Shown: positions 3,295-20,042 of the stretch, piece after piece
Layout of the letters: each line of letters opens with the position of its first letter
Position numbering within the stretch: position 1 is the stretch's first letter
Assembly: GCA_008501635.1 (NCBI GenBank)
Contig: QQUJ01000023.1
Span: forward strand, 62,001 to 126,000
Source: Pseudomonadota bacterium
GTDB lineage: Bacteria > Pseudomonadota > Gammaproteobacteria > QQUJ01
Direction of reading: 5' to 3'
Length of the DNA stretch: 64,000 bases
The notes under the pieces: model-generated
The model's database searches: none
Seen by the model: the letters and a program-made list of their open reading frames with translations, nothing else
What the model was told of the DNA's origin: nothing
Translations under genes and position numbers: made by a program

Positions 3295-4038
3295 GTGATG
3301 AGTTGGATCAAGGACCTGCTTCTCCCGTCGGGTTTGATCATGCTGCTCCTGCTGCTTTCCAGCGTCTTACTGTTCCTACCGCGGTGGCGACGGATCGCTT
3401 ACCTGGCGATTGCATCGGCGACGTCTTTTTATCTGGTCTTCAGTTCCGGTTGGACATCCTCGTTGCTGTTGTCGCCCCTGGAATACCGTTATGAATCGTT
3501 GCAACAACCGGGGAACTATCCAGACGTCGAGAACATCGTCGTCCTCACGGCGTATGTCGCGGATGATCCGCTGATGCCCTTAAGCTCCAGGTTCAACAGC
3601 AACTCGCTCTTCCGCATCGTGGAAGCACACAATATCTACAAGGCCTGCGAACGCTGCAGGATCATTGTCTCCGGTACCGCTCGTTACGTTGAGCTGATGC
3701 ATGAACAACTTCTGGCGCTTGGCATACCGGGCACCGATCTGCTCACCGACCCGATTGACGGACACACAGTGGATAGCGCAGAAAGCCTGGCCTGGAAACT
3801 AGAGTCAAAACAGTTCTTCCTGGTCACTTCCGCCGGCCACATGGTGCGTTCCATGGGGGTTTTCAGGAAACAGGGCTTTCGGCCGGTGCCGGCCCCGACC
3901 GATTACCTGATGCCGAAGGACTTCACCCGGGCCTCGATCATGCCCACTGCGCAGCACCTGATGTTTACCGATCTCGCCGTCAACGAGTACCTGGGAATAC
4001 TCTGGTACCGGATGACAGGAAAAATAGAGAGCCTGTAG
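3295..4038 (+). CDS. ElyC/SanA/YdcF-family (DUF218) membrane protein
   Basis: The product has two N-terminal membrane segments (about residues 10-28 and 35-55) followed by a DUF218 domain. Recognisable parts are NIVVLTAYVADD, the IIVSGTARYVELM segment, a TVDSAESLAWKLE helix with a conserved Glu, and FFLVTSAGHMVRSMGVFRKQGF, which matches the family's VTSAxHMxRA motif. Relatives ElyC and SanA act in envelope and peptidoglycan precursor homeostasis. The start is a GTG directly followed by ATG; both sit behind AAAGAGG. It precedes the HAD gene on the same strand by 33 bases, so the two are likely co-transcribed. Confidence 0.8.
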   Translation: MMSWIKDLLLPSGLIMLLLLLSSVLLFLPRWRRIAYLAIASATSFYLVFSSGWTSSLLLSPLEYRYESLQQPGNYPDVENIVVLTAYVADDPLMPLSSRFNSNSLFRIVEAHNIYKACERCRIIVSGTARYVELMHEQLLALGIPGTDLLTDPIDGHTVDSAESLAWKLESKQFFLVTSAGHMVRSMGVFRKQGFRPVPAPTDYLMPKDFTRASIMPTAQHLMFTDLAVNEYLGILWYRMTGKIESL

Positions 4039-4071
4039 AAAAGTAAATTCCCGCCAATCAAAGGATCCCGG

Positions 4072-4767
4072 ATGCAGCAAACCCCACTAAACCAGCCACC
4101 CCGGCCCGAAGCAGCAAACCTCCGCCGTCGGAACTGGAGCAATGCGCAAGCGATTCTGCTGGATCTCGATCGTACCCTGATCGACATAGAGAGCGAGGTG
4201 GACTACTGCGCAGCATTGGCACGTCTGCAGCGTGCCGGATTCGGGTTACGCGATGATCTCGGCGCAGCCACTTCGTGGGGCGACTGCACGCGACGCGTGA
4301 TCGATCTGCTCATCGGGCAGCCGGACCGGGAAACGTGGCAGCGCGCCGACGCGATCGTCGTGCCCTGCGAATTGGAGGGCGCAGAGCGCGCGCGTGCGAT
4401 GCCCGGGCTCGAAACGTTGTTACGCGCCCTTACCGGGCGCCCGGTGGGCATCGTCACGCTGGCATCGGCAGCCGCGACACAACGGGTGATCGAACGCTAC
4501 GGACTGATTGTCGACGCTGTGGTGGCGCGCAGCTTTGAAGTGCCCGCCAAACCGCATCCCGATCAATTGCTGGTCGCCCTCGGCACGCTCGGAGTGGAAC
4601 CGGCACACGCCGTCATGGTCGGCGACAGCGAGCGCGACGAAATGGCGGCGCAGGCGGCAGGGTTGGCGTTTATCGGGGTGACCAACGGGCGCAATGATCA
4701 CCGTTTTGACACCGCAGCGGCATTGGCGATGGATCTGAACGAAGTCGCCGCACTGCTAAGCGAGTAA
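4072..4767 (+). CDS. HAD-superfamily hydrolase (phosphatase-like)
   Basis: The 231-residue protein has the HAD motif I sequence LLDLDRTLID near residue 30, with both catalytic aspartates. Motif II is within IVTLASAAAT, the Lys of motif III is in SFEVPAKPHPDQ, and motif IV is VMVGDSERDEMAAQAAG. A helical cap lies between motifs I and II, as in PGP/YihX-type phosphatases. The N-terminal ~25 residues are a polar extension before the core. The Shine-Dalgarno AAAGGATCCCGG supports this start. The substrate is not predictable. It follows the YdcF-like gene closely. Confidence 0.83.
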   Translation: MQQTPLNQPPRPEAANLRRRNWSNAQAILLDLDRTLIDIESEVDYCAALARLQRAGFGLRDDLGAATSWGDCTRRVIDLLIGQPDRETWQRADAIVVPCELEGAERARAMPGLETLLRALTGRPVGIVTLASAAATQRVIERYGLIVDAVVARSFEVPAKPHPDQLLVALGTLGVEPAHAVMVGDSERDEMAAQAAGLAFIGVTNGRNDHRFDTAAALAMDLNEVAALLSE

Positions 4768-4944: not shown

Positions 4945-6051
4945 TTACATTTTCTTTTTCTCAGGGAAAACCTGGTCTGTGTCGGACCGTTCTGATTGCC
5001 CGGCAATTCTGCCAGCCATCACACGGTTTTTTCCGGCATGTTTCGCCTCGTAGAGTGCCCTGTCGGCGCTATCCAGCAGAATGTGGGCGGACATTCGGTC
5101 GTTCGGCACGGCGCAGGCGGTGCCGAGACTGACGGTAATCTCCCGCGGGAGCGGATCGGAAATTCGCGTGTTGATCGATGCAACACTCAGGCGAATGTTT
5201 TCCGATATCTTCAGTGCATTGTCGAGATCGGCTTCGGGCAGCAATACAGCGAACTCCTCGCCGCCGATGCGGGCAACGAGATCGCTGCGCCGGTGCAGAC
5301 ATGCCTGGATAGCAGTCGCGACCTCTTTCAGGCAGCGATCACCTTGTATGTGCCCGTGTTGATCATTGAACTTCTTGAAGTCGTCGATATCGATGATCGT
5401 TACGGCAAGCGCGAATTTCAGCCGTTGACCGCGATCCCACTCCCGCACAAGTATGCTGTCGAAGTAGCGGCGATTCGCCAAACCGGTCAGATGATCGTAG
5501 TTGGCCTGCTTTTCCAACTCGCCGCGCAGCTCGCGATTGTTCTTATCGTAGATGCGACCGATCCAGAAACAGTACGCCGAACCACAAAGTATGACGAGTG
5601 CCAGTACGATCTCCCTGTTACCACCACTCAGGTCGGTGGGGGGAATAAAGCCCCAGCGATTCGCCAGATAGAGCAGCGGCAAAATCGTGCATACCCCCAG
5701 CATGCTCGCCCACGCACCTTTTCCTTCGTTGGCGTATGACGCCATCACAACAATGACCGGCAGCAAGGCGACGGCGGGCGCAGACAACCCCCCCGCATAG
5801 TAGGCCGCAACAGCCACGAGCATGAATGCCCCACCAATGCCCACGATCAGGCCGAAGGTCAGGGATTGCGTCTTGTTGATCGACCACGGCACCAGGGCCA
5901 GCAAGACCATGTAGGAGACAAACACCGCGACGACCGGGAGGGCGTACGGATTGCCCGTAATCAGGCGCGTCGCCATCAGCAAGCTGCCTGCCACGATTAC
6001 GGAGAGGGCAAGCCTTTTTACAAAAACAAGTTTATGTCGATTATTTTGCAC
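4945..6051 (-). CDS. Membrane-anchored diguanylate cyclase (GGDEF, active-site GGEEF)
   Basis: An N-terminal region with about six membrane segments (residues ~10-180) is followed by a GGDEF domain containing DHLTGLANRRYFD, the metal-binding IDIDDFKKFND and the intact signature GGEEF. RRSD lies five residues before the signature, matching the RxxD allosteric inhibitory site. It should therefore synthesise cyclic-di-GMP and be product-inhibited. The membrane part resembles a MASE-like sensor but was not assigned to a named class. No ATG is available near the N-terminus. A GTG at 6051 gives a compact start just before the first membrane segment; an in-frame TTG at 6120 would add 23 residues. 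Neither has a clear ribosome binding site. The gene is monocistronic. Confidence 0.85.
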   Translation of the reverse strand: MQNNRHKLVFVKRLALSVIVAGSLLMATRLITGNPYALPVVAVFVSYMVLLALVPWSINKTQSLTFGLIVGIGGAFMLVAVAAYYAGGLSAPAVALLPVIVVMASYANEGKGAWASMLGVCTILPLLYLANRWGFIPPTDLSGGNREIVLALVILCGSAYCFWIGRIYDKNNRELRGELEKQANYDHLTGLANRRYFDSILVREWDRGQRLKFALAVTIIDIDDFKKFNDQHGHIQGDRCLKEVATAIQACLHRRSDLVARIGGEEFAVLLPEADLDNALKISENIRLSVASINTRISDPLPREITVSLGTACAVPNDRMSAHILLDSADRALYEAKHAGKNRVMAGRIAGQSERSDTDQVFPEKKKM

Positions 6052-6211
6052 GATGTCGGTCGATGTTCTTTTTTTCGATCGCCATAAGCGATTCTTGACT
6101 CTGAATCCACGGCTTTCCAATCACTTTATCACGCTGCACATCCCTACAGCGCATGGCATTACCAAAATAGCCATGGCATATCGTAGGGAGAATGGATCGC
6201 GCAGCTTCCCC

Positions 6212-7063
6212 TCACTCATTCATAATAAACGCGGATTCCTCATAGAACCGAATCCGCCCGCGCACCTCCAGATCATCCACATAGTCGCGCAGATGTTTCT
6301 CTTTCGCCGCATCGCTGTCGAGCGCTGTCAGAAACGCGAGATCGATGTTCAGACCCAGAGCGCGCCCGGGGATGTTGTGACGTGAAATGCCCGTGGGGAT
6401 CATCACCCCGGCATCCACCAGCTGCAGCAGCTCCACCTTGGTCAACTTCGGGTACAACACCAGTTGATGCTCCATGGTCTTGAACACATCCGGCAGGTTC
6501 GAGTAGTCGGCGAGCTTGATGCGTTCCAGGCGGGTCTTGCCCTCGTAGGCGGCGACCACCTGTTCCAGGATCCGCATCCAGCCGATGAGATCGGCGGGGC
6601 CGGACTCATGCTCTGACGACAGACCCCAGCAGGTGGTGGTTTCATCGACCAGCACTGCGTACAAGCGGCGCAGTTCGAGTTGGGGGGTCAGCTCCTCGCA
6701 GTCGATCCTGCGCAGCGTAACGCCCGGGATGGCTTCGTACCTGGCGCGCAGATCCAGAGAACGACCCTCCTGCAACAGGTGATGCCAGCCCTTCAGTGTG
6801 ACGTGCGGGTCGCCGTAGTCGACCACCTGCACCGGGACGTGCGAATAGCCGAGTGCGCGGAAAGCGCTGACGCGGTTGGCGCCATCGAGCAGCACGTACT
6901 CGCCGGGGCGCAGCGTGGCGACGATGGGGGGGTTGCGCAGAAATCGGTCTTCGCGCAGACGCTCGACCAACCGCAGGGTGCGGTTGTGCTCCGGGTTCTC
7001 GTGGAAACGGATACTGCCGCTGGGAGCCAATACCAGGTGGGGGATGTGCTCGAAAGCTTTCAC
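6212..7063 (-). CDS. ParB/sulfiredoxin-fold protein resembling the free serine kinase SbnI/SerK
   Basis: The 283-residue product begins at a GTG with GGAGAGG about ten bases upstream; the long upstream open frame is low-complexity and rejected. The first ~100 residues resemble the ParB-N-fold free L-serine kinases. FHE near residues 20-22 aligns with the catalytic Glu context of staphylococcal SbnI, LRNPPIVATL is followed by LLDGANRVSAFRALG (the family's DGxxR element), then VPVQVVDYG. The C-terminal ~180 residues also resemble SbnI-type proteins and are unlike chromosome-partition ParB: no helix-turn-helix or CTPase arginine patch was seen. If active, it would make O-phospho-L-serine. No siderophore or cysteine-synthase gene is adjacent. 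Alternative: an uncharacterised ParB-like regulator. Confidence 0.68.
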   Translation of the reverse strand: MKAFEHIPHLVLAPSGSIRFHENPEHNRTLRLVERLREDRFLRNPPIVATLRPGEYVLLDGANRVSAFRALGYSHVPVQVVDYGDPHVTLKGWHHLLQEGRSLDLRARYEAIPGVTLRRIDCEELTPQLELRRLYAVLVDETTTCWGLSSEHESGPADLIGWMRILEQVVAAYEGKTRLERIKLADYSNLPDVFKTMEHQLVLYPKLTKVELLQLVDAGVMIPTGISRHNIPGRALGLNIDLAFLTALDSDAAKEKHLRDYVDDLEVRGRIRFYEESAFIMNE

Positions 7064-7465: not shown

Positions 7466-7873
7466 TCAGGCATCTTTTTTGGTGTTTTCGCCAAACAGGG
7501 AATTGAGCGCGGCGAAAGGATCTTCCTTGGGCTTAGTCTGTGCCTCATCCGCCTCCTCCTCCTTCGGTTCCGGGCGGCCGAACAGATCATCGAGCCGGCT
7601 TCTGGCCTCCGCCGCCTCGCGCTGCTCGCGCCCGATGAAGGCATCGGGATCGGGTTTGAAGTACTGACAGAAGTTGGCGAGTTCGCGATCACGCGGCGGT
7701 TCCGCCAGCTCGTGATCGCACTGGCTGATGTAGCGCGGCGCGTAGTGGCGGCACAGGCGGCACACATGCAGGTCGGTGCCGCACTGCTTGCACTGCTCAA
7801 GGCGCGGAAAGGTGCGCGGCAGATCCTTGCGCAATGGATGTCCACACCTCCAGCACACCAGCTTGGCTGACAT
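7466..7873 (-). CDS. Small zinc-ribbon-like protein, function unknown
   Basis: A 135-residue protein starting at MSAKLVCWRCG behind GGAGGGTGTT. The N-terminal half carries a series of cysteines: CWRCG at residues 6-9, CKQCG about 25 residues later, then CRLCRHY and a further Cys-His (QCDHE) and FCQYF. This suggests one or two structural zinc ribbons. The second half is acidic and Lys/Glu-rich, ending with a DPFAALNSLFGE segment that looks like an amphipathic docking helix. It is a conserved hypothetical type in gammaproteobacteria; no function can be assigned. Gene order gives no clear partner. Confidence 0.75.
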   Translation of the reverse strand: MSAKLVCWRCGHPLRKDLPRTFPRLEQCKQCGTDLHVCRLCRHYAPRYISQCDHELAEPPRDRELANFCQYFKPDPDAFIGREQREAAEARSRLDDLFGRPEPKEEEADEAQTKPKEDPFAALNSLFGENTKKDA

Positions 7874-7968
7874 AACACCCTCCGATGAGCGCGAACCGGT
7901 TTCCAACTATGCGTTGGCGGGCCAGCGGATGCAACGGTCGGACACCCGATGGCACAGGTCGGTGATAC

Positions 7969-8450
7969 TCAACTCTTGCCGGAAATGTTGATGATGTGCT
8001 CGGGTCGGCCTCCTGCAGCGAGCGCACCATCAGCGGCAGGCTCGGGCACCGCCGCTTCCACTTCGACCGGCGGCACCCAGATACCACCGCTCTTCAACAT
8101 GTCATCGGTGCGCCCGGCATAAAGGAAATGGCCGGCATCGCCTTGAAAGAATTTGTCCCCCGTATACAGCCCGGAGCCGAGCATGGTCTCTTCGGTCTTC
8201 TCGTGCTTGTTCCAGTAACAAGCCGCGGCGCTGTCGCCCGGGATCAGCAGGGTGCCGGCCCCACCGGGGGAACATCGTTGAACTGTTCATCGACGATGCG
8301 CGCCTGATAACCGGGGACCAGCAATCCGGTGCGACCGGGACGCGCTTCGCCCGGCAGCTTGGAGATGAAGCAGTGCGACATTTTGGTCGCGGTGTTGAGC
8401 ACCGTCTTCCCGTTTACCCAGTCAAACGGCGCGCCAACTCTGATAGTTAT
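7969..8450 (-). pseudogene. Remnant of a benzoate-CoA-ligase-type AMP-forming acyl-CoA synthetase
   Basis: Translation on the minus strand in two successive frames gives colinear fragments of the acyl-CoA synthetase C-terminal half. First comes HCFISKLPGEARPGRTG with LLVPGYQARIVDE. After a frameshift near 8245-8260 comes SAAACYWNKHEKTEETM, followed by YTGDKFF, YAGRTDDMLKSGGIWV and PVEVEAAV. GRTDDM-K-GGIWV is the hinge and A8 region typical of benzoate-CoA ligases. The ATP-binding N-terminal half and the C-terminal end with the catalytic Lys are missing, and a stop follows soon after. It is therefore a decayed fragment, suggesting past aromatic-acid activation capacity. Confidence 0.8.
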
Positions 8451-8843
8451 GTCTGCGGCGGCGCCAAGACTCTGGAACAAAAGGGATAATTGTTGGCCTC
8501 GGCCCACCATGAAATGCAGCATTCAGACGGGCTGCGCTGCCAGTCGTGCAAAAATCGGAGCATCGGTGTAAACGACCTTTGCACGCGAATCCGCCGCCAC
8601 CCCCGCGAAGTCAGAGCTCCAGGAAGTTCAGCTTCGGTTCTCCCGCCAAGACGCAGGGAGCGCCAAGAACGGCCTGTTTCTGTTGAGCCTCGGAAGATTG
8701 CGATCTCAGCAGCAGGGCGGGTCGTGATCGTTATCTCGGGTCCTCCTGGCGCCTTGGCGAGAATCCACGCCTTCAACCCCGTAGGGACACACCCACGAGC
8801 ACGTTACAATCCACCCCTGCCGGATCAACCGCGAATCGATAGG
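8451..8843. repeat. Intergenic stretch with a GCCAAG-type imperfect inverted repeat
   Basis: Between the ligase remnant and tmcA no coding sequence is convincing. The left arm near 8641-8666 contains CCGCCAAGACGCAGGGAG and GCGCCAAG; the right arm near 8747-8764 contains GGCGCCTTGGCGAGAA. The arms pair imperfectly. The same GCCAAGACGC-type sequence recurs as a clearer inverted repeat at 53698-53813, so this is probably a degenerate copy of a dispersed intergenic repeat. The tmcA promoter must lie at the right end. Confidence 0.45.
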
Positions 8844-11021
8844 ATGTTTGATTCAAATCTCACGCAGCTTCGCCACAAGGCCCGGGATCTGCATCAGCGC
8901 CGCCTGATCGTCGTATCGGGAAGCGTCGCCTGGTGCCGCGAACGCGCTGTCGAGATTTTCGCGACCAGCACCGGTGAGACGTTGTGGATCGGCGACGAGG
9001 CACGGCACGGCATCGCAACACTCGGTGCCGCGCGCAGCCGCAAGGTGTTGGGCCGCGAAGTGGATACCCTGGTCTTCGACGCCCACTGCGGTTTCGATCC
9101 CGATGCCTTCGGCGCCACGCTGGGCGCGGTACGCGGTGGCGGGTTGGCGGTACTGCTCACCCCGCCGGTGGTAACGTGGCCCACCTTCAACGATCCGCAG
9201 AACCGACGCATCACGGTGGCGGGTTACGATCCGGCAACTTTGAGCGCGCGCTACATCACTCGCCTGCTGCGCGTGCTGCGCGCGGACCCACACCTCTGGT
9301 GGCTGCAAGAGGGAGAGCCGATACCACCGCTTCCATCCGGTGCCTTGGAAACCCTTCCGCAGCCTGCCGAGCATGTCGCTCACGCACCCTGCCGCACCAC
9401 AGATCAAGCCCGCGCTGTCGAGGCCATCCTGCACACCGCCACCGGACACCGCCATCGCCCCGCCGTTCTGATCGCCGATCGCGGGCGCGGCAAATCGGCT
9501 GCTCTGGGTATCGCCGCCGCGCACCTTTTGCACGAACGCGACTGCTACATCGTCGTTACCGCTCCGCGCCGTGATGCCGTCGAACCGGTGTTCGCGCTCG
9601 CTCGATCGCTCGCTGCGAGTGAAACGCCCCACGGCGGCGGCCTGCTGGAGTTCGTGCCTCCGGATGAGCTGGTGCGCCATCCGCCCGCCGCCGATCTGGT
9701 GATGGTCGACGAAGCAGCGGGCATCCCCGCGCCTTTGCTGGCACAGATGCTGGTGCACTTTCCGCGCATCGTCTTCGCCACAACCGTACACGGCTACGAA
9801 GGAACCGGGCGCGGTTTTGCGCTGCGCTTTCAGCGCCTGCTCGACCGCGAAACGCCTGGATGGCGCGCACTGCAACTGAAAACGCCGATCCGCTGGTCGC
9901 CCAACGATCCCGTCGAAGCGCTGGCGTTTCGCGCCCTGCTGATGGATGCCAGGGCGGCCCCGGAAGAGGCGATCGCCGACGCTGATCCGGATGGCTGTCC
10001 CATCGACTTTATCGATCGCGACCAATTGATCAGCGATGAACCGTTGCTGTGTGAACTCTTCGGCCTGCTGGTCAACGCCCACTACCGCACCACGCCGCTG
10101 GATCTGCGTCATCTGCTCGACGGTCCCAACCTCGACATCGCGGTGCAGCGGCACCAGGGTCATGTCGTCGCGACGGCGTTGATGGCGCGTGAGGGCGGCT
10201 TCGATGCGGCAACGGCGCGCGCCATCTGGTCCGGCCGCCGCCGTCCGCAGGGACATCTGCTCGCGCAATCGCTGGCGGCGTATCTTGGCATCGAAGAGGG
10301 ACCGCAATTGATCGGTGCGCGCATTCTGCGCATCGCCGTGCATCCCGCAGTACAACGGCGCGGTTTCGGCACAGCGTTGATCGCGCACCTCACGGCCACC
10401 AGCCAGGCGCAGGGACTGGACTATCTCGGATCGAGTTTCGGCGCCACAGCGGAACTGATGCGTTTCTGGGCCGCCTGCGGTTGCCGCCCGATCCGCATCG
10501 GTCACCGTCGTGAGGCCTCCAGTGGCCAGCACTCCGTGCTGGTTTTTCATCCGCTATCGCAACGTGGGCAACGCATCGACGCGCAAGCACGCGAACGCTA
10601 TCGGCGCAACCTGCAGGTCGGACTCAACAGCAGTTTTGCCGACCTTGAACCGGAGTTGCTCACGTTGTTGCTTGAGGAGACTGTCCCGACTTCAGGCGAC
10701 ACGCTCGATACGCACGACTGGCACGATCTCGTCGCCTTCGCCTTCGCGCTGCGCGGTTACGAATCCGCGCAAGCGGCAATCGAGCGCTTCACCCCATTCG
10801 CGTTGACACAGGCCAGCGCCGATGGGCAGATTGCGGACGACGTCCGCGCACTGCTCATCTTCAAGATCATCCAGCGTCACGACTGGCCCGAAACCGCGGC
10901 GCAATTCGGCTTCGCTGGACGCCGTGAATGCGTGGAACGACTGCGCGCAGCACTACGGCCGTTGCTGCTGCGACATGGGGATGATTCGGTACGAGATCTG
11001 ATCGAACAGCTGTCCAATTAG
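8844..11021 (+). CDS. tmcA: tRNA(Met) cytidine acetyltransferase TmcA
   Basis: The 725-residue product has the four-part architecture of TmcA. An N-terminal DUF1726 domain (MFDSNLTQLRHKARDLHQRR onward) is followed by a helicase-like ATPase with Walker A ADRGRGKSAALG near residue 210 and Walker B LVMVDEAAGIP. A GNAT acetyltransferase domain follows near residue 495 (RILRIAVHPAVQRRGFGTAL, acetyl-CoA binding loop), then a C-terminal tRNA-binding tail. TmcA uses ATP and acetyl-CoA to make N4-acetylcytidine at the wobble position of elongator tRNA-Met. The predicted substrate tRNA is encoded in this window at 34885-34961. The start at MFDSNL matches the family N-terminus; upstream in-frame sequence is not conserved-looking. 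Confidence 0.95.
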   Translation: MFDSNLTQLRHKARDLHQRRLIVVSGSVAWCRERAVEIFATSTGETLWIGDEARHGIATLGAARSRKVLGREVDTLVFDAHCGFDPDAFGATLGAVRGGGLAVLLTPPVVTWPTFNDPQNRRITVAGYDPATLSARYITRLLRVLRADPHLWWLQEGEPIPPLPSGALETLPQPAEHVAHAPCRTTDQARAVEAILHTATGHRHRPAVLIADRGRGKSAALGIAAAHLLHERDCYIVVTAPRRDAVEPVFALARSLAASETPHGGGLLEFVPPDELVRHPPAADLVMVDEAAGIPAPLLAQMLVHFPRIVFATTVHGYEGTGRGFALRFQRLLDRETPGWRALQLKTPIRWSPNDPVEALAFRALLMDARAAPEEAIADADPDGCPIDFIDRDQLISDEPLLCELFGLLVNAHYRTTPLDLRHLLDGPNLDIAVQRHQGHVVATALMAREGGFDAATARAIWSGRRRPQGHLLAQSLAAYLGIEEGPQLIGARILRIAVHPAVQRRGFGTALIAHLTATSQAQGLDYLGSSFGATAELMRFWAACGCRPIRIGHRREASSGQHSVLVFHPLSQRGQRIDAQARERYRRNLQVGLNSSFADLEPELLTLLLEETVPTSGDTLDTHDWHDLVAFAFALRGYESAQAAIERFTPFALTQASADGQIADDVRALLIFKIIQRHDWPETAAQFGFAGRRECVERLRAALRPLLLRHGDDSVRDLIEQLSN

Positions 11022-11179: not shown

Positions 11180-12040
11180 GTGGCGCAACGATGGACCCGC
11201 AAGCAGATATTGGGTGCCTGGCTCGCCGTCGTGTCATCACCCGCGCTGGCGGCACCCGCTGACTTCGGCGCCAAACCCATCGCGCCACCCGCGAAATCTG
11301 CTCCCACCATCGCCCGCTATACCTACACCGCGCAGATACGCACCGCGGTACGCCCATCAAATCCGGTCGTTGCCGGCGGTATCTCCTGGCAATGCACTGG
11401 ATCGTGGTGCACCGCCAGCGGACCCTGGCTCGTGCCCTCCGTGGAGAGTTGTCGCGCCCTGGCCGAAATCGTCGGCGCTATCACCGCCTATGGACGACCC
11501 GGAAGAACACTGAGCGCGGCAGATCTGGCACGATGCAATGCTACTCAAGCGAAATTCAATTCGGGCAGTCAGCATAGCGAGATCAACCAGAAAACCCGGA
11601 AACGTATTCCCGCCAAGACACCTGAATGGAGCAGCTTTCAACCCAGCGATCCCGGCACTCCCCTCCTCAAACACAATGAAATGGCGGAACATGGCCATCG
11701 CGGAGCAGCACAATCGAAACTCCCGCCCATTACCGGTGCGCGGTTGCCGAAGCCCGCAGTAAAGCCTGCGCGCCCCCCTGCGCCAGCTACAAGTTCAGCG
11801 CGCTTCGAACTCAACTTTCTCGCCACCCCGAGGGCGGGCGCAACACCAGCTGCGCCTGGCGCCCCGGCAGGCTCGGCGAGTGGCGGGCCGCGCGCGCAAC
11901 GGTTCGAGCATAACTTCATCGCGACGCCCAGGGCGGGTGTGGTTCCGGCGGCCCCGACAAGACCCGAAGAGACCACCGGCGCCGATCTGCGCACAACTCG
12001 GTTCGAACTCAATTTCATTGCGCAACCCAGAACGCGCTAA
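11180..12040 (+). CDS. Exported protein with four-cysteine module and C-terminal RFELNF repeats
   Basis: A GTG start lies behind AAAGGAGAACAG. A signal peptide (LGAWLAVVSSPALAAP) is followed by a four-cysteine module at about residues 45-115: GISWQC, WCTASGPW, a CRALAE helix and a terminal ARCN. The same module occurs in the protein at 17840-19810. The middle region is polar and low in predicted structure. The C-terminal 80 residues contain three copies of R-F-E-x-N-F-[IL]-A-[TQ]-P-R separated by Ala/Pro/Gly linkers. I do not recognise a named family. It is probably periplasmic or secreted, with two disulfides likely. The 12060 gene starts 19 bases downstream and is probably in the same operon. 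Confidence 0.8.
   Translation: MAQRWTRKQILGAWLAVVSSPALAAPADFGAKPIAPPAKSAPTIARYTYTAQIRTAVRPSNPVVAGGISWQCTGSWCTASGPWLVPSVESCRALAEIVGAITAYGRPGRTLSAADLARCNATQAKFNSGSQHSEINQKTRKRIPAKTPEWSSFQPSDPGTPLLKHNEMAEHGHRGAAQSKLPPITGARLPKPAVKPARPPAPATSSARFELNFLATPRAGATPAAPGAPAGSASGGPRAQRFEHNFIATPRAGVVPAAPTRPEETTGADLRTTRFELNFIAQPRTR
11801..12037 (+). repeat. Three tandem RFELNF-type protein repeats at the C-terminus of the 11180 gene
   Basis: In frame, the units read RFELNFLATPRAG, RFEHNFIATPRAG and RFELNFIAQPRTR, starting about 33 codons apart, with the last unit ending at the stop codon. The linkers are rich in Ala, Pro, Gly and Thr. The amino-acid motif is kept better than the DNA (for example CTCAACTTT, CATAACTTC and CTCAATTTC), which points to selection on the peptide rather than recent DNA duplication. 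Confidence 0.85.
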
Positions 12041-12059
12041 GCACCCGGGAGGATCCCTT

Positions 12060-12626
12060 ATGAAACCGTTATCGAAGCATTGGCCACTGTATCTGCTGCT
12101 CGCAACATTGCCCGGTGGGACAACAAGTTACGCGCAATTCCCGCAGCCGGGAATCGGACATCAATCCTATGGCGGTCCGCGCGAGACAATCACCATCAGC
12201 GGGCGCGTCGTCACCGATGACGGAACTCCCGTTTCCGGTATCGAGCTCGGGGTGCCGATCAGTGGTGGTCTACTGGGCTTGCCTGTCAGGCGGCCATTCC
12301 GTGGCATGAGTTCCATGTGTTTCGATAACTTCCGCGGTAGCTTTACCACCGACGAGATGGGGCGCTACAGCTTCACCGTCGATTATCTGCCCGAAGCGCC
12401 CAGCGGTCTGGGGGGTGACGAACGTTGCCACCAGCAGCGCAGCCGTATGACTCAAAACAATATCAACGTCATTCCGTCGCCGTTCGGCCCGATCAACTCA
12501 AACTACACCCTGCGTGTGGCGACCGGTCCATTGCCCACGCGCCCGCTACCGACACCAACGCTCCTACAAAATCCGAATCCCGCGCGCCGGACCCCGGGGG
12601 GCTTCGCGCCGAGTCTATCGCGCTAA
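12060..12626 (+). CDS. Exported protein with carboxypeptidase-regulatory-like (Ig-like) domain
   Basis: The 188-residue product has a signal peptide (WPLYLLLATLPGGTTSYAQ). It is followed by ETITISGRVVTDDGTPVSGIEL and, later, FTTDEMGRYSFTVDYLPE, the opening strands and closing turn of a CarboxypepD_reg-like beta-sandwich. The two elements are separated by an unusually long insert containing MSSMCFDNFRG. Two cysteines (CFDNF and ERCHQQ) may form a disulfide. The C-terminal ~35 residues are Pro/Thr-rich. GGAGGATCC precedes the ATG. It probably forms an operon with the four-cysteine protein just upstream, so the two may act together in the envelope or outside the cell. Function unknown. Confidence 0.75.
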   Translation: MKPLSKHWPLYLLLATLPGGTTSYAQFPQPGIGHQSYGGPRETITISGRVVTDDGTPVSGIELGVPISGGLLGLPVRRPFRGMSSMCFDNFRGSFTTDEMGRYSFTVDYLPEAPSGLGGDERCHQQRSRMTQNNINVIPSPFGPINSNYTLRVATGPLPTRPLPTPTLLQNPNPARRTPGGFAPSLSR

Positions 12627-12715
12627 CTCTGAAGTTCCAGTGCGAGGAACGATGCGCATTCAATCAGCGCATCGAGCAGTCGCCCGTTAGCCCCCCTGGC
12701 TGATCAAAGGAGCTT

Positions 12716-13438
12716 TCAGGTGCCGCTGATAATCAGTTTCCCGAGCAACCCCACGGCAAACCCCGACACTGCACCCAGCGGAGGAAACCAATGACGTCGC
12801 AAGTGCGACTGCGGCGCTATGTCCTGGAAAATCAGATACAGGATACCGCCGGACGCAACCAGCATCAGTGCACCGAGGAAATGGGTGTGTACGGAAATAA
12901 ATGCCCACCCGAGAAGACCCATGACAGGCCCGATCGGGACGAGAAGGCACATTAGAACAAGTACTCGACGGGATCTTGCACCTTTCACCGACATCAATTC
13001 CCGATACGAATTAAAACCCTCGGGCAGGTTTTGCAGTCCGATGAAAATCGCCAACAAAGGGGCGGCACCCGACCCCACGGCAAACACCCCTCCCAGCGCT
13101 ATCGACTCCGGTACATAGTCAAGCAGCGTGGCACTGAACTGTGGGGAGTCGCGTCGGCGAAGTCCTAACGCGCGCTCCATCAGGAAAAACAGAACACCGC
13201 CCAACAGAAAGTAGAGCACGCAAAAGTATGGCTGCTGCACATAGTCCACACCCTCGGGCAGCAACACCAATGCCACCGCGGCCAGCAGAATACCGCCGCC
13301 AAATGCAATGACAAAATGCCTGAACTCCTTCTCCAGCCATTGGGGACGGATGCGTTCGATCTTTGCAATGAAACCCCCCAATGGGATACAAGCACCAGCC
13401 GCCGCCGTGTAAGCCACTATCTCAACGATTTCCTCCAT
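12716..13438 (-). CDS. ZIP-family metal transporter
   Basis: A 240-residue polytopic membrane protein with about eight hydrophobic segments. Segment 4 contains DYVPESIALGG and segment 5 contains FIGLQNLPEGFNSY, the paired H/N-x-P-E-metal-binding helices typical of ZIP transporters (here with VPES and LPEG). The family imports divalent cations such as Zn2+, Fe2+ or Mn2+ into the cytoplasm. Canonical His residues in the first site are replaced by Tyr-Val, so metal preference may be atypical. The start at MEEIVEIV is behind GGGGCAGG; an in-frame TTG four codons upstream is less likely. It is divergent from the PepSY gene at 13659. Confidence 0.85.
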   Translation of the reverse strand: MEEIVEIVAYTAAAGACIPLGGFIAKIERIRPQWLEKEFRHFVIAFGGGILLAAVALVLLPEGVDYVQQPYFCVLYFLLGGVLFFLMERALGLRRRDSPQFSATLLDYVPESIALGGVFAVGSGAAPLLAIFIGLQNLPEGFNSYRELMSVKGARSRRVLVLMCLLVPIGPVMGLLGWAFISVHTHFLGALMLVASGGILYLIFQDIAPQSHLRRHWFPPLGAVSGFAVGLLGKLIISGT

Positions 13439-13658
13439 AACCTGCCCCAAGCGGGTTCGTCTCCTTGTCGGTTTTCAATCAATGGGTGCTCTTGGTTTCA
13501 GGACAACACCCGTTTTCGCCTGAAGGTCTGCAAACGGCTGTTTCCATACTGCCATCACCTGGATGTTTTTTCAGGATGAATTCAGCTGGCTGTTTCATAC
13601 TGCGCTCACGGTCGTTACCCAGATCACCATTTAACACTGCCCAACTGGAGATTTAATC

Positions 13659-13982
13659 ATGAAAACATCACATGCCATTTTGGCCATCGCCCTGACCAGC
13701 GCCACCATTGGTGGTAGCGCGTTTGCCGTATCGGCAAACGATACCGCCAACAGGTCCAGCACAACTCCCGCGAACTGGCTGGAAATACCCGCCATCTACG
13801 CCAAGGTAAAAGCCGCCGGCTTCAACGATATTTATGAAATCGAGCGTGAGCACAATGGCTATGAAGTAAAGGCCATCGGCCCCAATGGCGAGCGCGTCAA
13901 GCTGCTGGTCGACCCGGTGACCGGAGAGGTGCTTCAGTCCCGTTTCAAGCAGGACAAATATCGCGGATACCGCAGCGATTAA
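13659..13982 (+). CDS. Small exported PepSY-domain protein
   Basis: 107 residues with a signal peptide (HAILAIALTSATIGGSAFA), then a single PepSY domain. WLEIPAIYAKVKAAGFNDIYEIEREHNGYEV and DPVTGEVLQSR fit the helix-strand pattern and the DxxTGEVL hallmark. Small periplasmic PepSY proteins often accompany heme- or flavin-containing membrane reductases and sensor kinases. Here the next gene, 98 bases downstream, is such a reductase. Shine-Dalgarno CTGGAG lies upstream of the ATG. Confidence 0.87.
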   Translation: MKTSHAILAIALTSATIGGSAFAVSANDTANRSSTTPANWLEIPAIYAKVKAAGFNDIYEIEREHNGYEVKAIGPNGERVKLLVDPVTGEVLQSRFKQDKYRGYRSD

Positions 13983-13995
13983 TCGACCATGAGAC

Positions 13996-14030
13996 GCCCC
14001 TGTCACCCCGTTGAAGCGGGGAGCAGGGGC
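13996..14030 (+). terminator. Stem-loop between the PepSY and reductase genes
   Basis: GCCCCTG pairs with CAGGGGC, and an inner CCCC...GGGG extends the stem around a TTGAAGC loop. There is no T-run after it, so it is more likely an intra-operon attenuating or RNA-stabilising hairpin than a full terminator. It would favour higher expression of the upstream PepSY gene. Confidence 0.5.
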
Positions 14031-14080
14031 GCCCCTCGGAGTAGCAAAATCAGTTCCATACCTGATCACTGAGGCCGCCC

Positions 14081-15400
14081 ATGAAGACCATCCTCACCAG
14101 CTTTCTTGCTCTCATCACCGTTGCCTGGGGCTGGGAGATACTCTCGCCGCAGCACCTCACGGCCGGCTCATTGCCTTGGACCCTGCGCCAGGAGGCGCTC
14201 TATCTGACCGGCCTCTGGTCCATCTCCCTGATGTCGCTGGCGATGGTGCTGGCCACCCGCCCCGCCTGGCTGGAACGGCCGCTGGGCGGCATGGACCGTA
14301 TCTACCGACTGCACAAATGGAGCGGCATCCTGGCGGTCGGATTCGCGGCCGTGCACTGGCTGGTGGAGATGTCGGACGACCTGCTCAAGGCAACCGTCGG
14401 ACGCGCCGGCCGCATCAGAAAGGATGACTTCTCGGCCTTCGCCGAGCCGGTACAAGATTTTGGTGAAGCCCTGGGCGAGTGGGCAATCTATGTACTCTTC
14501 GTGCTGCTGGCGTTGACCCTGTGGAATCAATTTTCCTACCGCCTGTGGCGGCCGCTGCATCGCGCGATGCCGGTGCTCTATCTGCTGCTCGCTTTCCACT
14601 CAATCGTGCTGGCACCGGCAAATTACTGGAGTCAGCCCACGGGGCTGCTGCTGTCCGTGCTGCTCACAGCCGGTGTGATGGCCAGCGTGTTGTCACTTAC
14701 CGGGCGCATCGGGCGCGGAAGGCGGGTAACCGGTCATGTAGTCGCGGTGGAAAACCCGACTCCCGATATCGTTGAGGTACGTTGCCGTCTGGCTGATGGG
14801 TGGCGCGGCCATCGCCCGGGCCAGTTTGCCTTCGTGACCTTTGACAGCAGCGAGGGCGCACACCCCTTCACCATCGCCAGTGCCGATCACGGCGACCACA
14901 TCGTCACCTTCGCCATCAAGTCATTGGGCGACTATACCCGCAAACTGTCCAGGCAACTGGTAGTCGGCAACCCGGTTCAGGTCGAGGGTCCCTATGGTCG
15001 ATTCGAGCTCGACCGTACCAACCGCCGTGCACGGCAGATCTGGATCGCGGCCGGCATCGGCGTCACGCCATTTATCGCCTGGCTGGAATCCCTCCAGGGT
15101 GAGCGTGCCGCAGAGGTCGCAGCCGATCTCCACTACTGCGTACGTGACCGCACGACCGACCCATTTGTACAGCGTCTGCAGGAATTGTGCGCGGAGCTGC
15201 CGGAGGTCCGGTTGCATCTGCATGACGAGCAGAGCGGCCCACTGACCGCCGAGGCCCTGGCGGCGACATCCGGCAATGTCAAACGCGCCGAGGTGTGGTT
15301 CTGTGGACCCCGCAGCTTCGCCGAGACCCTGCGCAACGGTCTGCGTCAGGTCTGGCCGGGAAGCGTCCGTTTTCATCAGGAAGCGTTCAAGATGCGCTGA
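14081..15400 (+). CDS. Ferric-reductase-like flavocytochrome (FRE-type transmembrane domain plus FAD/NAD(P)H domain)
   Basis: The 439-residue protein has six membrane helices in the first ~215 residues, including paired histidines in LHKWSGILAVGFAAVHW and further His residues in RPLHRAMPVLYLLLAFHS, suiting two b-type hemes. The cytoplasmic part has the FAD motif HPFTIAS, then AAGIGVTPFIAWL for NAD(P)H phosphate binding and WFCGPRSF near the end. It should pass electrons from NAD(P)H through FAD and heme across the membrane to ferric iron, oxygen or a periplasmic acceptor. It follows the PepSY gene, and the pair probably forms one redox unit. It resembles ferric reductase/NOX-type proteins more than MsrQ because it has its own reductase domain. 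Confidence 0.88.
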   Translation: MKTILTSFLALITVAWGWEILSPQHLTAGSLPWTLRQEALYLTGLWSISLMSLAMVLATRPAWLERPLGGMDRIYRLHKWSGILAVGFAAVHWLVEMSDDLLKATVGRAGRIRKDDFSAFAEPVQDFGEALGEWAIYVLFVLLALTLWNQFSYRLWRPLHRAMPVLYLLLAFHSIVLAPANYWSQPTGLLLSVLLTAGVMASVLSLTGRIGRGRRVTGHVVAVENPTPDIVEVRCRLADGWRGHRPGQFAFVTFDSSEGAHPFTIASADHGDHIVTFAIKSLGDYTRKLSRQLVVGNPVQVEGPYGRFELDRTNRRARQIWIAAGIGVTPFIAWLESLQGERAAEVAADLHYCVRDRTTDPFVQRLQELCAELPEVRLHLHDEQSGPLTAEALAATSGNVKRAEVWFCGPRSFAETLRNGLRQVWPGSVRFHQEAFKMR

Positions 15401-15617
15401 GCAGGTTAATTTTCCAGTCCTGGCGGGAACCAAGTTGTGTAACGTGTTGAAGTCAGTGTGCAGCGGGTGTGGGACCCCGGCATCCGCTGGTTGCACTGCA
15501 TTAACCGGTTGTCGGTGCTGGCCCCGTCAGGCAGCGGAATGGTTATCTACAACGGCTGGGATCTTGGCACATCGCCGGCGACGCCAGGATCTGGCTCAAG
15601 GAGTTACATGTATGGAG

Positions 15618-15679
15618 AAACCGGGTCAGAGCGCAATTGTTTCCAATATTGGAATGTATTGCTCTCTGACCCGGTTTTT
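15618..15679. repeat. Near-perfect palindromic element with ACCGGGTCAGAG ends
   Basis: AAACCGGGTCAGAG on the left is matched by CTCTGACCCGGTTT on the right. The interior continues the symmetry (GCAAT...ATTGC around TTCCAATATTGGAA), giving a palindrome of roughly 60 bases. GGGTCAGAG-bounded palindromes of this sort are dispersed in many gammaproteobacterial genomes and are often linked to REP-associated or IS200-like transposases. No transposase gene lies nearby. It sits in an otherwise gene-free stretch of about 300 bases between the reductase gene and the convergent 15707-16498 gene, so as RNA it could also serve as a bidirectional terminator. Confidence 0.85.
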
Positions 15680-15706
15680 AAATATGAGCAGGGTCGGTCT
15701 CGCTCA

Positions 15707-16498
15707 CTAAATCGTAATCTCCTCCCCATACCCCATGACCTGGCACTCTGCGCCTCTGCTCTCCACCTGTTTCTTAAAGTAGCGAACATCAGCCGAGTTA
15801 CCGCCTCTTATCCAAAAAAACGCACCATCGTAATGGCATGGGATCACCAGTTTGGGTGCGATGAGCTCAACCGCTGCCAGCGCCTCGTCTTCGTTCATCG
15901 TGTTCTTTGGAAGGCGCCCTCCGATGGGAATCATCAGTACATCGGCTTTCAGGTCTTCCCATTCCTGTTGCAGCAAGGTGTCGCCAAGGTTGACGAGCGT
16001 GGTTCCACCGACCGTAATCTTGAATCCAATGCTACCCAGGCCTATACGTTCTCCCGGCCCGGGTGTGATCTCGTGCCGCAGGAGACCAAAAAAGAAAGAG
16101 AGGGCCAGGGGACCGTGAACCGTTTTGATCCCCTCGATCCGCACGCCGTCGACCTCGACAGCCTGACCAACCTCCAGGGGATACAACCGATCGAGCCTGG
16201 TGGAATACCGAATCCCCCGTTTCCTCGGATCCAGCAGCACCCTCTCTTTTCCGTTCTCCTTTACCAGCGCCTTCCCGCAGATGACGGGCGCATTAGCACA
16301 CCGCGCCACGCGATCAACGTACCAGTAATGATCGGGATCACCGTGGGTGGCCAGTACGTGCGTGACATCGCCCCACTCTACCTTGGGTATCAGGCTGTTC
16401 AGCTTGCCGATCCAGAGATTGAGGCCGGGATCGATAGCGATCTTGGTCGCGGCCTCTTCTATCAAAAAGGCGTTGTACAGAAAGTATCTCAATCGCAT
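15707..16498 (-). CDS. Metallo-beta-lactamase-fold (UlaG-like) hydrolase with altered metal motif
   Basis: The 263-residue protein begins YFLYNAFLIEEAATKIAIDPG and has VLATHGDPDHYW where the family normally shows HxHxDH. IKTVHGPLALS, LVNLGDTLL and VIPCHYDGAFF follow, the usual later metal ligands and the closing His segment. This layout matches the UlaG-like, metal-dependent L-ascorbate-lactonase-type branch. The second histidine of the first motif is replaced by aspartate (HGDPDH), so metal 1 coordination may differ or the enzyme may bind one metal. The substrate is unknown. The upstream gene on this strand is the antiporter, about 220 bases away. Confidence 0.8.
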   Translation of the reverse strand: MRLRYFLYNAFLIEEAATKIAIDPGLNLWIGKLNSLIPKVEWGDVTHVLATHGDPDHYWYVDRVARCANAPVICGKALVKENGKERVLLDPRKRGIRYSTRLDRLYPLEVGQAVEVDGVRIEGIKTVHGPLALSFFFGLLRHEITPGPGERIGLGSIGFKITVGGTTLVNLGDTLLQQEWEDLKADVLMIPIGGRLPKNTMNEDEALAAVELIAPKLVIPCHYDGAFFWIRGGNSADVRYFKKQVESRGAECQVMGYGEEITI

Positions 16499-16718
16499 GG
16501 CATATACGCCTCATTTCAGTGGTGGGCCACGCCGATGGTCACCCTCTGCAATCGACGTTTACGTGAATAGATCGTGTCGCTGTCGCGCGGCTTGCACCGG
16601 TCCCACTGTCGCATCGACAAAACGTGGTACCGCTGAGTGTGTGAAATTAAATCCGTCCCCCTTTTGCTGCCTTTTTGCTTGAGATCATTCTATGCAGCCA
16701 GCATACAATCTTCTGACG

Positions 16719-17684
16719 TTACCCACTGAGTGCATTAAAACTCAAGCCGACATAAACACTATAACCGGCCAAGAGTATTCCACCTTCCACCCTGCTCAGA
16801 CAACGCCCCGTATACAAGAACACCAACAACAGTATAGAAGTTCCCAGCATGACCCATTGGTCGAACTGCAGAATCCTTGCGTGCACAGGGAGTGGCTGAA
16901 GTAGAGCGGATACGCCTAAGATTCCCAACAGGTTGAAGATATTACTTCCAAGTACGTTTCCAACGGCCACATCCGCGTGCCGACGTAGCGCTGCAATCAC
17001 GGAAATCGAAAGCTCTGGAAGGGACGTGCCCACTGCGACAAGCGTCAAGCCGATTACCGCCTCCGAAACCCCCAATTCCTCGGCAATCCCAACAGCTCCC
17101 TTTAGCAGCACCCGTGAACCCACGATTAACAGTGTTAGACCAGCAATTACATTCGTTACAGTCCATGTGGCAGATTTCGGCAGAGCGGTTAGTTCTTCGG
17201 CTTCAGCCTGATGAAGTTCCGAAGCAGGTGCATCGTGAAAGCGTTCGCTACGATAGGCCCATATCAAATAAGCCATCAAAGCCATCAAAAATATCACAGC
17301 ATCCGCACGCCTTAGCTCACTGCCACCGACCAGAATCAGAAACAATATGCTTGCCGCCACGACCGTGACCGCGTCTCGGCGTAGTGCCAGTGGCTTGACT
17401 GCCAAGGGTGTGATTAGGGCGCATGTTCCAAGGATCAGCAAAACATTGGCGATATTACTACCCACGACATTGCCGATAGCAATATCCGGTTGTTGGTTTA
17501 ATGCAGCATCTACAGAGACCACCAACTCCGGCGCTGAGGTGCCGAAGCCCACAATAACTAGACCGCTTAGCAAGGGCGATACACCAAGACGCTTGGCGGC
17601 AGCCAACGAACCTCGAATCAGCCCTTCACCACCAACAGTAAGCAAGCCAATACCGATCACCAAGTACAGTACATTATTAACCAT
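16719..17684 (-). CDS. Na+/Ca2+ antiporter of the CaCA superfamily (YrbG-like)
   Basis: A 321-residue, ten-helix membrane protein with the two homologous alpha-repeats. The first contains VIVGFGTSAPELVVS and GNVVGSNIANVLLILG; the second contains TLVAVGTSLPELSIS and GNVLGSNIFNLLGILG. The G-T-S-x-P-E acidic residues are the cation-binding glutamates. Relatives exchange Na+ or H+ for Ca2+ across the inner membrane. The central loop (about residues 150-170, Ala/Glu-rich) is cytoplasmic. The ATG at 17684 is preferred to a TTG two codons upstream. The local base composition is slightly more AT-rich than the flanking genes. Confidence 0.92.
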   Translation of the reverse strand: MVNNVLYLVIGIGLLTVGGEGLIRGSLAAAKRLGVSPLLSGLVIVGFGTSAPELVVSVDAALNQQPDIAIGNVVGSNIANVLLILGTCALITPLAVKPLALRRDAVTVVAASILFLILVGGSELRRADAVIFLMALMAYLIWAYRSERFHDAPASELHQAEAEELTALPKSATWTVTNVIAGLTLLIVGSRVLLKGAVGIAEELGVSEAVIGLTLVAVGTSLPELSISVIAALRRHADVAVGNVLGSNIFNLLGILGVSALLQPLPVHARILQFDQWVMLGTSILLLVFLYTGRCLSRVEGGILLAGYSVYVGLSFNALSG

Positions 17685-17780
17685 CGTCAACTGCTATTAA
17701 GTATTGAAATAGAAGGACTCCTAAAAACCATATCAGTGGCCCAGCAAACATTGAAAATAGATCTATCCCCCCATTTACCA

Positions 17781-17815
17781 AACAGACGAACCCGGCTTGC
17801 GCCGGGCTCGTCTGT
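17781..17815. terminator. Long stem-loop downstream of the 17840-19810 gene
   Basis: AACAGACGAACCCGGC pairs over sixteen positions (one G-T) with GCCGGGCTCGTCTGTT around a TTGC loop. Read on the minus strand it follows the four-cysteine gene's stop by about 25 bases, so it likely ends that transcript. The T-tract is short and interrupted, so efficiency is uncertain. The antiporter gene beyond it on the minus strand should be separately transcribed. Confidence 0.75.
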
Positions 17816-17839
17816 TCCACTGACTGCTGTAATTGGCCG

Positions 17840-19810
17840 CTATTCAAAATCGGTCAGATAAGCCAGCACCAGATCATTACCTTCGATGCGCACCGAGTTC
17901 AGCGTGCCGATACGCAGACCGCGCAGCGACGGCAACAGCGCTATGGCGACCTGGTCGCGCACGGCCGGTGTATCCAGCACATTCATGAAGCTGGACTCGA
18001 CGATGGTTCTGATCAGGCCGCGATAGTCGCTGATCGCGGAGCAGAGTAAATCCACCACCCGGCACAGGCCGTCGGCTTGCGCATCCACATTAGGAACGAC
18101 CCGTACGCGGGAGAAGCTGAGGCTGATGGGTGCCGTGCGCGAGTAGTAGCGATCGAGCGTGAAGAAGATGTCGACCGCGATACTTGCCTGCACGTCGGGC
18201 GCGCCGGCGCCACAGAACAAATCCCACCCATCCTGGCCGCAGGTGCCGATCAACTCCGTGCCGTTGGACTCGAAGACCATGGCGACGCGCAGTTCGTTTT
18301 CCGCGGGCAGTACGCGGGTGCTGGCGAGGTTGATGTCGTTGATGTAGTACTTACGCGGACCGCTGACCGCGGGACCGATGTTGAAGCGACGCTCGGTGCC
18401 GCCCAGCGCATCGGAGAGCCGCACGAAAGAGTCATTCTCGCGTGTGCGCCGCGTGGCCGGATCGTAGTTGTTGATACGGATCTGGGTGCCGTTAAAGGCG
18501 CTCTGAACCAACCCGGATACGATGCGCATCGCAATACGGCGCGTCTGCATGCCGACGCGAAATTCGAACGCCCTCGTCGCGCGCGACTGATCGTAGCTGA
18601 GGCGTACCGTACCGCGCTCCGGCACCCAGGCGCCGCCGGTGCAGGTAATACCGACCAGTTCGGGTCGCAGCTCCACTTCATCCGAAGAGGTCGAAGGCGG
18701 CAGGTTCATTTCGTAGCGAATGGCAAAGTCGTTGCCGGGCACGCCCTGCCCCATCGTTGAGCCAATCTGACGGCCTTCGCGAAACGCACGGACCCGCACG
18801 TTACCCGCCCCGGCGCCGCAGTTGGTGACACGGATATCACCCACCGCCGTGAACTGCGTCGGGCAGACGCGAAGCTCGCGGGTGGTGTTGCTGATCGGGT
18901 TGTTGCGCTCATCGACCATCGCCACCACGTAACGTTGTCCCGGCAGTACAAATGAACGCTCGGGCAGTTGCGCGGTGATACGCCCATCGCTCCAACTGTA
19001 GACACCGAAGACGGCACGGATGGGCGTATGGCGCACCGGGGTCATGAACATCAGCCGCCGCGAACCGGCTTCAGCACCGAAGTTGCGGCCTGTCACCGTG
19101 AAATCGCGTCGCGAGCAACTCAGTCCATCACTGTCCGTAACACGATCGATGACCGGACGGCTGCCGATGCCGGCAGCCGCTTCGCGGATGGTTTCCGCAG
19201 CGCCGCGCGGTGGTGCACTACCGAAACCGCCCGGTGAACCCGAGGGCGTTGATCCGGGGCGGATACCGGGGGCAGGCAGGGCGGGCGCCATCGCGGGCCC
19301 GGCGGCCGATTGCCGCGGTACCACCGGGCGCGTCGGCGGTTCGGGCTGCGGACCGGCTTGCGCACGACTGGATGGTTTGATCTGCGTGGCAATGGCGGGC
19401 GCCTTCTGTTTCGCGCCGCCACTCGGCGCGGTAGCAGCGGATGCGGTCGCGTTGCATTCACCCAGTTGAGCCGCATTCAGCTGCGCGCCCTTGTAACCGT
19501 AGGATTTGATGCGCCCTACTTCACCTGCCAACGCTTTGCAGGCCGCGACCCCCGGTTTGGGCCACGGCCCACTCGCCGTGCAGCGGGCGCCCTGGCACTG
19601 CCACTGGATACCCAAGGCGGTGACTGCGCCCTGCTTGGCGGCCGTCGCTTGGATAGCGGCAGAATAGTGATAGATCTTGGGTGGGGCGACACTGTTTAGC
19701 GATCCGGTCGGTGGTGCGGCAAAGATCGCGGTCGAGGTCAACAACAAGGCCGCGATTGCGATCTCGTTTCTAATGCGGAGTGGCGTGCTACTGCGGATCT
19801 TCCTGTTCAT
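17840..19810 (-). CDS. Large exported protein: four-cysteine module, Pro-rich linker, IPT/TIG-like domain and novel C-terminal region
   Basis: 656 residues, starting at MNRKIRSS behind GGAGGAGAG. A signal peptide (IAIAALLLTSTAIFAAP) is followed at about residues 50-115 by the same module as in the 11180 gene: GIQWQC, RCTASGPW, a CKALAGEVG helix and GECNA. A Pro/Ala/Gly-rich linker (about 120-215) follows. An IPT/TIG-like Ig fold comes near 220-310 (DRVTDSDGLSCSRRDFTVTG and GRNFGAE), then a CARDB-like segment (VGDIRVTNCGAGAGNVRV). The last ~300 residues were not recognised; they contain paired cysteines and a helical end (PAVRDQVAIALLPSLRGLRIG). It probably works outside the cytoplasm, perhaps in ligand or surface binding. 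A strong stem-loop follows the stop. Confidence 0.82.
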   Translation of the reverse strand: MNRKIRSSTPLRIRNEIAIAALLLTSTAIFAAPPTGSLNSVAPPKIYHYSAAIQATAAKQGAVTALGIQWQCQGARCTASGPWPKPGVAACKALAGEVGRIKSYGYKGAQLNAAQLGECNATASAATAPSGGAKQKAPAIATQIKPSSRAQAGPQPEPPTRPVVPRQSAAGPAMAPALPAPGIRPGSTPSGSPGGFGSAPPRGAAETIREAAAGIGSRPVIDRVTDSDGLSCSRRDFTVTGRNFGAEAGSRRLMFMTPVRHTPIRAVFGVYSWSDGRITAQLPERSFVLPGQRYVVAMVDERNNPISNTTRELRVCPTQFTAVGDIRVTNCGAGAGNVRVRAFREGRQIGSTMGQGVPGNDFAIRYEMNLPPSTSSDEVELRPELVGITCTGGAWVPERGTVRLSYDQSRATRAFEFRVGMQTRRIAMRIVSGLVQSAFNGTQIRINNYDPATRRTRENDSFVRLSDALGGTERRFNIGPAVSGPRKYYINDINLASTRVLPAENELRVAMVFESNGTELIGTCGQDGWDLFCGAGAPDVQASIAVDIFFTLDRYYSRTAPISLSFSRVRVVPNVDAQADGLCRVVDLLCSAISDYRGLIRTIVESSFMNVLDTPAVRDQVAIALLPSLRGLRIGTLNSVRIEGNDLVLAYLTDFE

Positions 19811-20042
19811 TGTTCTCTCCTCCGGGTCGGCATTCTGCTGCTGGGTATGCCTGTGGGTCGCTTTTTTTTGCACCGAGGTTCAACTCTGATCGGTTGAGTT
19901 AGGTATAGCGCACGATCAGCTTCCTCGGGAGGAAATTGAGATCAGCATTGCGAGGTGCCGGCCCGGAACGCTTGGCCGTTATTCACGATCCGTCGCTGCA
20001 GCAGATTCGCGTGTTCCCTGCCGGGGAAGTACTACCGCCGGT

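Follow-up and report, generated by a model that had tools for sequence, protein, structure and literature searches.

Two exported composite proteins with a CC_3452 family module in a gammaproteobacterium, and the repeat tails and small downstream genes that accompany such proteins

Two exported proteins with one N-terminal module

The window (the whole stretch of 64,000 nucleotides analysed here) encodes two exported composite proteins, designated A and B. Their positions and those of their shared module were as follows.

11180-12040, forward strand: ORF A, exported composite protein of 286 aa, GTG start with a good Shine-Dalgarno sequence
11288-11542, forward strand: CC_3452 (NF047636) module of A, residues 37-121 (E 1.6e-15, 57.3 bits against a cut-off of 40)
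17840-19810, reverse strand: ORF B, exported composite protein of 656 aa, ATG start
19448-19729, reverse strand: CC_3452 (NF047636) module of B (E 6.5e-16, 58.6 bits)

Both reading frames proved real, and B began at ATG 19810, as the original prediction had it; a GTG at 19873 gives a longer frame, but that start was only a mechanical choice, and the ATG was preferred. The GTG at 11180 is preceded by AAAGGAGAACAGG and the ATG at 19810 by GGAGGAGAGAACA. In A, a signal peptide is followed by the module, a low-complexity linker and three C-terminal repeats; in B, the signal peptide and module are followed by a linker, a weak TIG-like stretch and an unassigned C-terminus. A hydrophobic segment ending in ALAAP or AIFAAP, read from the sequence as the export signal, abuts the start of the module in the two proteins. 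BLASTP aligned A with B over 114 aa including the signal-peptide region (42% identity, E 5e-21), and the elements GI.WQC, CTASGPW, C[RK]ALA and CNAT were all found in both modules, confirming the claim of a shared module directly after the signal peptide. No other similarity of note was detected by BLASTP outside this N-terminal stretch, in agreement with the view that the remainders of the two proteins are unrelated. Searches of A and B against Pfam, PHROGs and PADLOC yielded nothing usable.

Judged by profile score, the module is the NCBIfam family NF047636, "CC_3452 family protein", which is already catalogued under a name without an assigned function; the model has 92 positions and a curated cut-off of 40 bits. 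A and B scored above this cut-off, and both carried the four cysteines and an export signal. The statement that no named domain was known for the module was thus wrong. The suggestion of an undescribed family failed for the module, which is listed, and held for the composite architecture, which is undescribed. No Pfam model matched the module, and the strong match to a Pfam domain of assigned function against which the original prediction had staked its case was not found.

A and B resembled the family in the whole module, the signal peptide, the same four cysteines and the closing CN motif. However, the members sampled were single-domain proteins of 96-130 aa from two alphaproteobacterial orders, whereas A and B are gammaproteobacterial, composite and far longer. 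A length close to that of the 92-position model is typical of the family but does not enter into its formal definition. The single-domain members also lacked the GPW that follows the second cysteine (C2) in A and B, which sit in a separate composite clade. Across about 1,500 genomes, the family was nearly always a single-domain exported protein of that length in those two orders, where it was frequent (161 of 299 and 84 of 150 genomes). Of 398 genomes sampled evenly across the phylum, 30 had it, and of 385 sampled evenly across the alphaproteobacterial class, 10 had it, showing that it is rare there. In the class to which the window's organism belongs, matches of any kind came from four of 369 genomes: that organism's own, G499, G611 and one at chance level. 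A and B were the sole members in their own 3.93 Mb genome. When 84,980 species were scanned with patterns from A and B, and from A, B and G747, the only match was G747 itself. No matches were found in viral contigs and plasmids, and weak matches in G599, G119, G929 and G1496 were judged to be chance. The 35 single-domain loci showed no neighbouring gene or conserved operon common across families. In nine loci of one family, f97 (L047, L049-L051, L055, L056 and L058-L060), a putative HxlR-type regulator, assigned by eye, adjoined the single-domain CC_3452 gene and was encoded on the strand opposite to it; it may regulate that gene.

Cysteines and predicted fold of the module

The original prediction had depended on conservation of the four cysteines among homologues, and this was observed: all four were present in 100 of 105 distinct family rows, A and B among them. 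Four of the five remaining rows were truncated, degenerate or doubtful matches. The only true exception was L010 (G274), in which C1 and C2 were replaced together (VWKFHDGAFAA) and the rest of the family pattern was kept. L010 can be regarded as a natural test of cysteine pairing.

The module was modelled with AlphaFold2 from B, using an alignment of four sequences (B, A and the two G747 modules), with a pLDDT of 85.1 and a pTM of 0.69. The predicted order was four strands, a helix, a strand and a helix. C1 and C2 (model residues 41 and 46) lay on neighbouring, facing strands of a tight hairpin with a two-residue turn between them, and C3 (60) and C4 (88) lay one in each of the two helices. 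From this model we infer a C1-C2 and a C3-C4 disulfide. Foldseek returned no significant match of the fold in the PDB or among viral models, and the module had no convincing sequence relative in the PDB, consistent with the expectation of a fold without a solved homologue. A PDB profile match to a leucine-rich repeat protein (E 1e-4) had no stretch that passed alone and was judged to be chance.

The near-invariance of the four cysteines could also reflect a metal or iron-related site, with the proteins taking part in periplasmic iron or metal handling. The sole functional datum found for the family in the literature searched would fit such a role: in Caulobacter crescentus, iron limitation raised CC_3452 expression 2.52-fold and a fur mutation raised it 2.51-fold (PMC3751524 Table 1); its other locus name, CCNA_03566, added an annotation table only (PMC3951458). 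However, this induction is small, and no Fur-box match was found in the window when up to three mismatches were allowed. C1 and C2 are cross-strand neighbours in the model while C3 and C4 sit on helices, and the joint loss of C1 and C2 in L010, with the family pattern kept, fits two independent disulfides better than one four-cysteine site. We consider a metal site quite unlikely.

A second exported cysteine-rich module, CGTHWT.W....NP.T.PCPA.CE.GE...E..H.QG, was seen elsewhere in the window's genome (L158, G000:C30:113000-128000), where it is common to two proteins (7708-8904 and 11815-13269, both on the reverse strand; BLASTP E 2e-18). Both belong to a series of seven genes on one strand, all seven without a Pfam match.

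The composite clade and its C-terminal parts

Long composite versions of the module were found in seven further genomes beyond the window's own. G747 (CAMYOD010000051.1, uncultured Gammaproteobacteria bacterium isolate ES_M_Gamma_001) has two adjacent composites of 315 and 516 aa. Three more were found in G1487 and one each in G1452, G1376 and G1373, from the alphaproteobacterial order of G074. In G499 and G611, the modules are strongly diverged and joined to long proteins. The ten alignable composite modules (A, B and eight others) formed one clade with support of 100/98 and recovery in 100% of 200 bootstrap trees. Its inner order is unsure because the alignment has few columns; B grouped with the G747 pair. 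GPW after C2 was present in nine of the ten clade composites and in no single-domain member. In these proteins, one conserved 80-residue domain is joined via a linker to C-terminal parts that vary: triple tails, a TIG-like stretch in B, a C39-like peptidase in G1373 and an X-like domain (X is described below) in G1376. One diverged composite of 820 aa, in G499 (L037, G499:C22:17000-28699), has three further uncharacterised proteins nearby; these seem to be exported, and at least one has an outer-membrane-like sequence.

The G1373 protein, in which the module stands N-terminal to the C39-like cysteine peptidase (Pfam PF13529, E 2.3e-7), raises the possibility that the module serves secreted peptidases as a prodomain or inhibitor, and peptidase genes occur near some of the gene pairs described below (X in G000 C28 has a papain-family gene in its vicinity, and the G747 pair a subtilase). 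However, this is one fusion only, and none of these peptidase genes adjoins its pair; they also belong to different classes. Most members stand alone, and the 35 loci compared had no neighbour in common across families; Pfam recognised no peptidase domain in A or B. We regard a role as peptidase prodomain or inhibitor as very improbable.

Beyond its module, B has one stretch with weak similarity to a known domain.

18890-19156, reverse strand: TIG/IPT-like stretch of B (PF01833, E 0.14, 12.6 bits against 20.9, below the cut-off)

The similarity covers residues 240-328 in the numbering of the 677-residue ORF, and the gathering score was not reached. B has neither a triple tail nor X. Its C-terminus had no other homologue in its own genome, G747, G499, G611, G706 or the plasmids, and the AlphaFold2 model of the C-terminal 453 residues was unusable (pLDDT 36). 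In that unusable model, the last third of B (17840-18560, reverse strand) was strand-rich and then helical; by eye it could be a lipid-binding-like domain.

Triple tails and small downstream genes

The tail of A and the gene behind it were placed as follows.

11801-11839, forward strand: tail repeat 1 of A, RFELNFLATPRAG
11900-11938, forward strand: tail repeat 2 of A, RFEHNFIATPRAG
11999-12037, forward strand: tail repeat 3 of A, RFELNFIAQPRTR, at the C-terminus
12060-12626, forward strand: small exported protein of 188 aa, 19 nt downstream of A, with its own Shine-Dalgarno sequence

The tail consists of three C-terminal copies of RFELNFIATPRAG. The triplicate identity (29 of 39 positions) exceeded all 300 of 300 shuffles, which reached at most 17, showing that the repeat tail originally noted in A is genuine. 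The codons of the three copies differed by 17 synonymous and 10 amino-acid-changing differences.

Tails of another sequence were found in other composites. Exactly three C-terminal T..L...G units (e.g., VRTNTMTLTG, AVTSPELSVIG and LRTRELTITG) end G747 ORF1, the three G1487 proteins and the G1452 protein. Directly downstream of such tail proteins is encoded X, a small exported protein with two cysteines and no match in Pfam, NCBIfam, the PDB (by sequence) or PADLOC. The X profile was built from the G747, G1487, G1452 and G1376 loci, and so its recovery of those loci is circular. The window's own genome provided an independent test: X was found there twice (E 3.4e-16 and 2.1e-5), and the gene directly upstream of each encoded an exported protein that lacks the CC_3452 module and has a tail of three T..L...G copies. 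Because these two tail proteins were found via X alone and have no module, it is the tail, not the module, that goes with X. In all, X lay directly 3' of all seven T..L...G triple-tail proteins and of the G1376 composite, at distances from a 4-nt overlap to a 16-nt gap; in the loci used for the profile, the two genes shared an ATGA or stood 1-16 nt apart. The G1376 composite itself carries an X-like domain, fused with the module into a single polypeptide (21.5 bits; none of 2000 shuffles scored as high). Among the 74 genomes searched with the X profile, only weak matches were seen elsewhere, in G1482 and G1496.

L157 (G000:C28:1-14000; 3597-4510, forward strand) has a 152-aa exported triple-tail protein without an N-terminal module and X 11 nt later, the smallest form of tail plus X. 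L159 (G1482; 5580-6341, forward strand) encodes a 253-aa protein in which an X-like domain is followed by a cysteine-rich stretch and an FVFTGTG end; it may be a fusion form of the pair.

Copies within one tail were alike at 0.61-0.87, and tails of different proteins at a mean of 0.25. The tail copies are conserved as protein sequence: over eight tails, codon differences were synonymous in 103 cases and amino-acid-changing in 73. Among the seven pairs, no co-divergence was seen between tail type and the sequence of X (Mantel r -0.14, p 0.74).

The pair in the window was not homologous to this main type. The A tail was ruled out as a homologue of the T..L...G tails (0.4 bits, a score reached in 1189 of 3000 shuffles). 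The X profile had no match within the window, and the 12060-12626 product, with no score against it, was ruled out as an X homologue. This product gave sub-threshold Pfam matches only, to CarboxypepD_reg and Dioxygenase_C; the first (PF13620) was a weak N-terminal similarity (ETITISGRVVTDDGTPVSG) of 15.7 bits against 32.3, with no stretch that passed alone. Since the layout is the same and the sequences differ, we treated A and 12060-12626 as a variant of the tail-partner pair by analogy, not homology, with the 12060-12626 product as a candidate partner of A in the position equivalent to X.

The lack of a profile link between the A tail and the other tails, and of X behind A, would suit an account in which the module alone matters, the tails and linkers being low-complexity wear and the downstream genes chance neighbours. 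We judge this unlikely, since exactly three copies end at the C-terminus in eight proteins, synonymous differences exceed amino-acid changes among the copies, X lies directly 3' of every main-type tail protein including the two independent finds, and the G1376 composite joins an X-like domain to the module.

The reading we prefer, which we hold as possible and short of probable, places A and B, as exported proteins of several domains, in a rare composite ('GPW') clade; the module would serve for anchoring or targeting, and the triple tail for docking of a small secreted partner. Stabilised by disulfides, the module would keep C-terminal parts of different kinds at a single site in the periplasm or on the surface. 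Where there is a triple tail, its three near-identical strands at the C-terminus would be docking sites, possibly by strand addition, for the directly downstream product, which would be X in other lineages and probably the 12060-12626 product in the window. B would instead carry its functional part fused in cis, as the TIG-like stretch and unassigned C-terminus. Docking is what we infer from these sequences. We counted in favour of anchoring and docking the membership in the CC_3452 family, the composite clade, GPW, the near-invariant cysteines, the AlphaFold2 model, the adjacency of X, the G1376 fusion and the synonymous excess. Against it we counted the A tail and downstream gene, which are not homologous to the main class, the absence of tail-X co-divergence, the low pLDDT of the B C-terminus, and the Caulobacter iron/Fur response, which docking does not explain.

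A broader proposal, which we find rather doubtful, is that these genes belong to an undescribed scaffold-partner system scattered over alpha- and gammaproteobacteria. The exported scaffold would begin with a four-cysteine, another cysteine-rich, an Ig-like or no module; X would bind the three strands, three per scaffold, and the A pair would be a variant in which both strand and partner differ.

These results open a structural and a genomic approach to a secreted family that has a name but no characterisation, and the triple tail and X are two linked parts found in none of Pfam, NCBIfam, the PDB and PADLOC. If the docking reading is true, a tail with three docking sites and a partner gene immediately behind it would amount to a new, small secreted scaffold.
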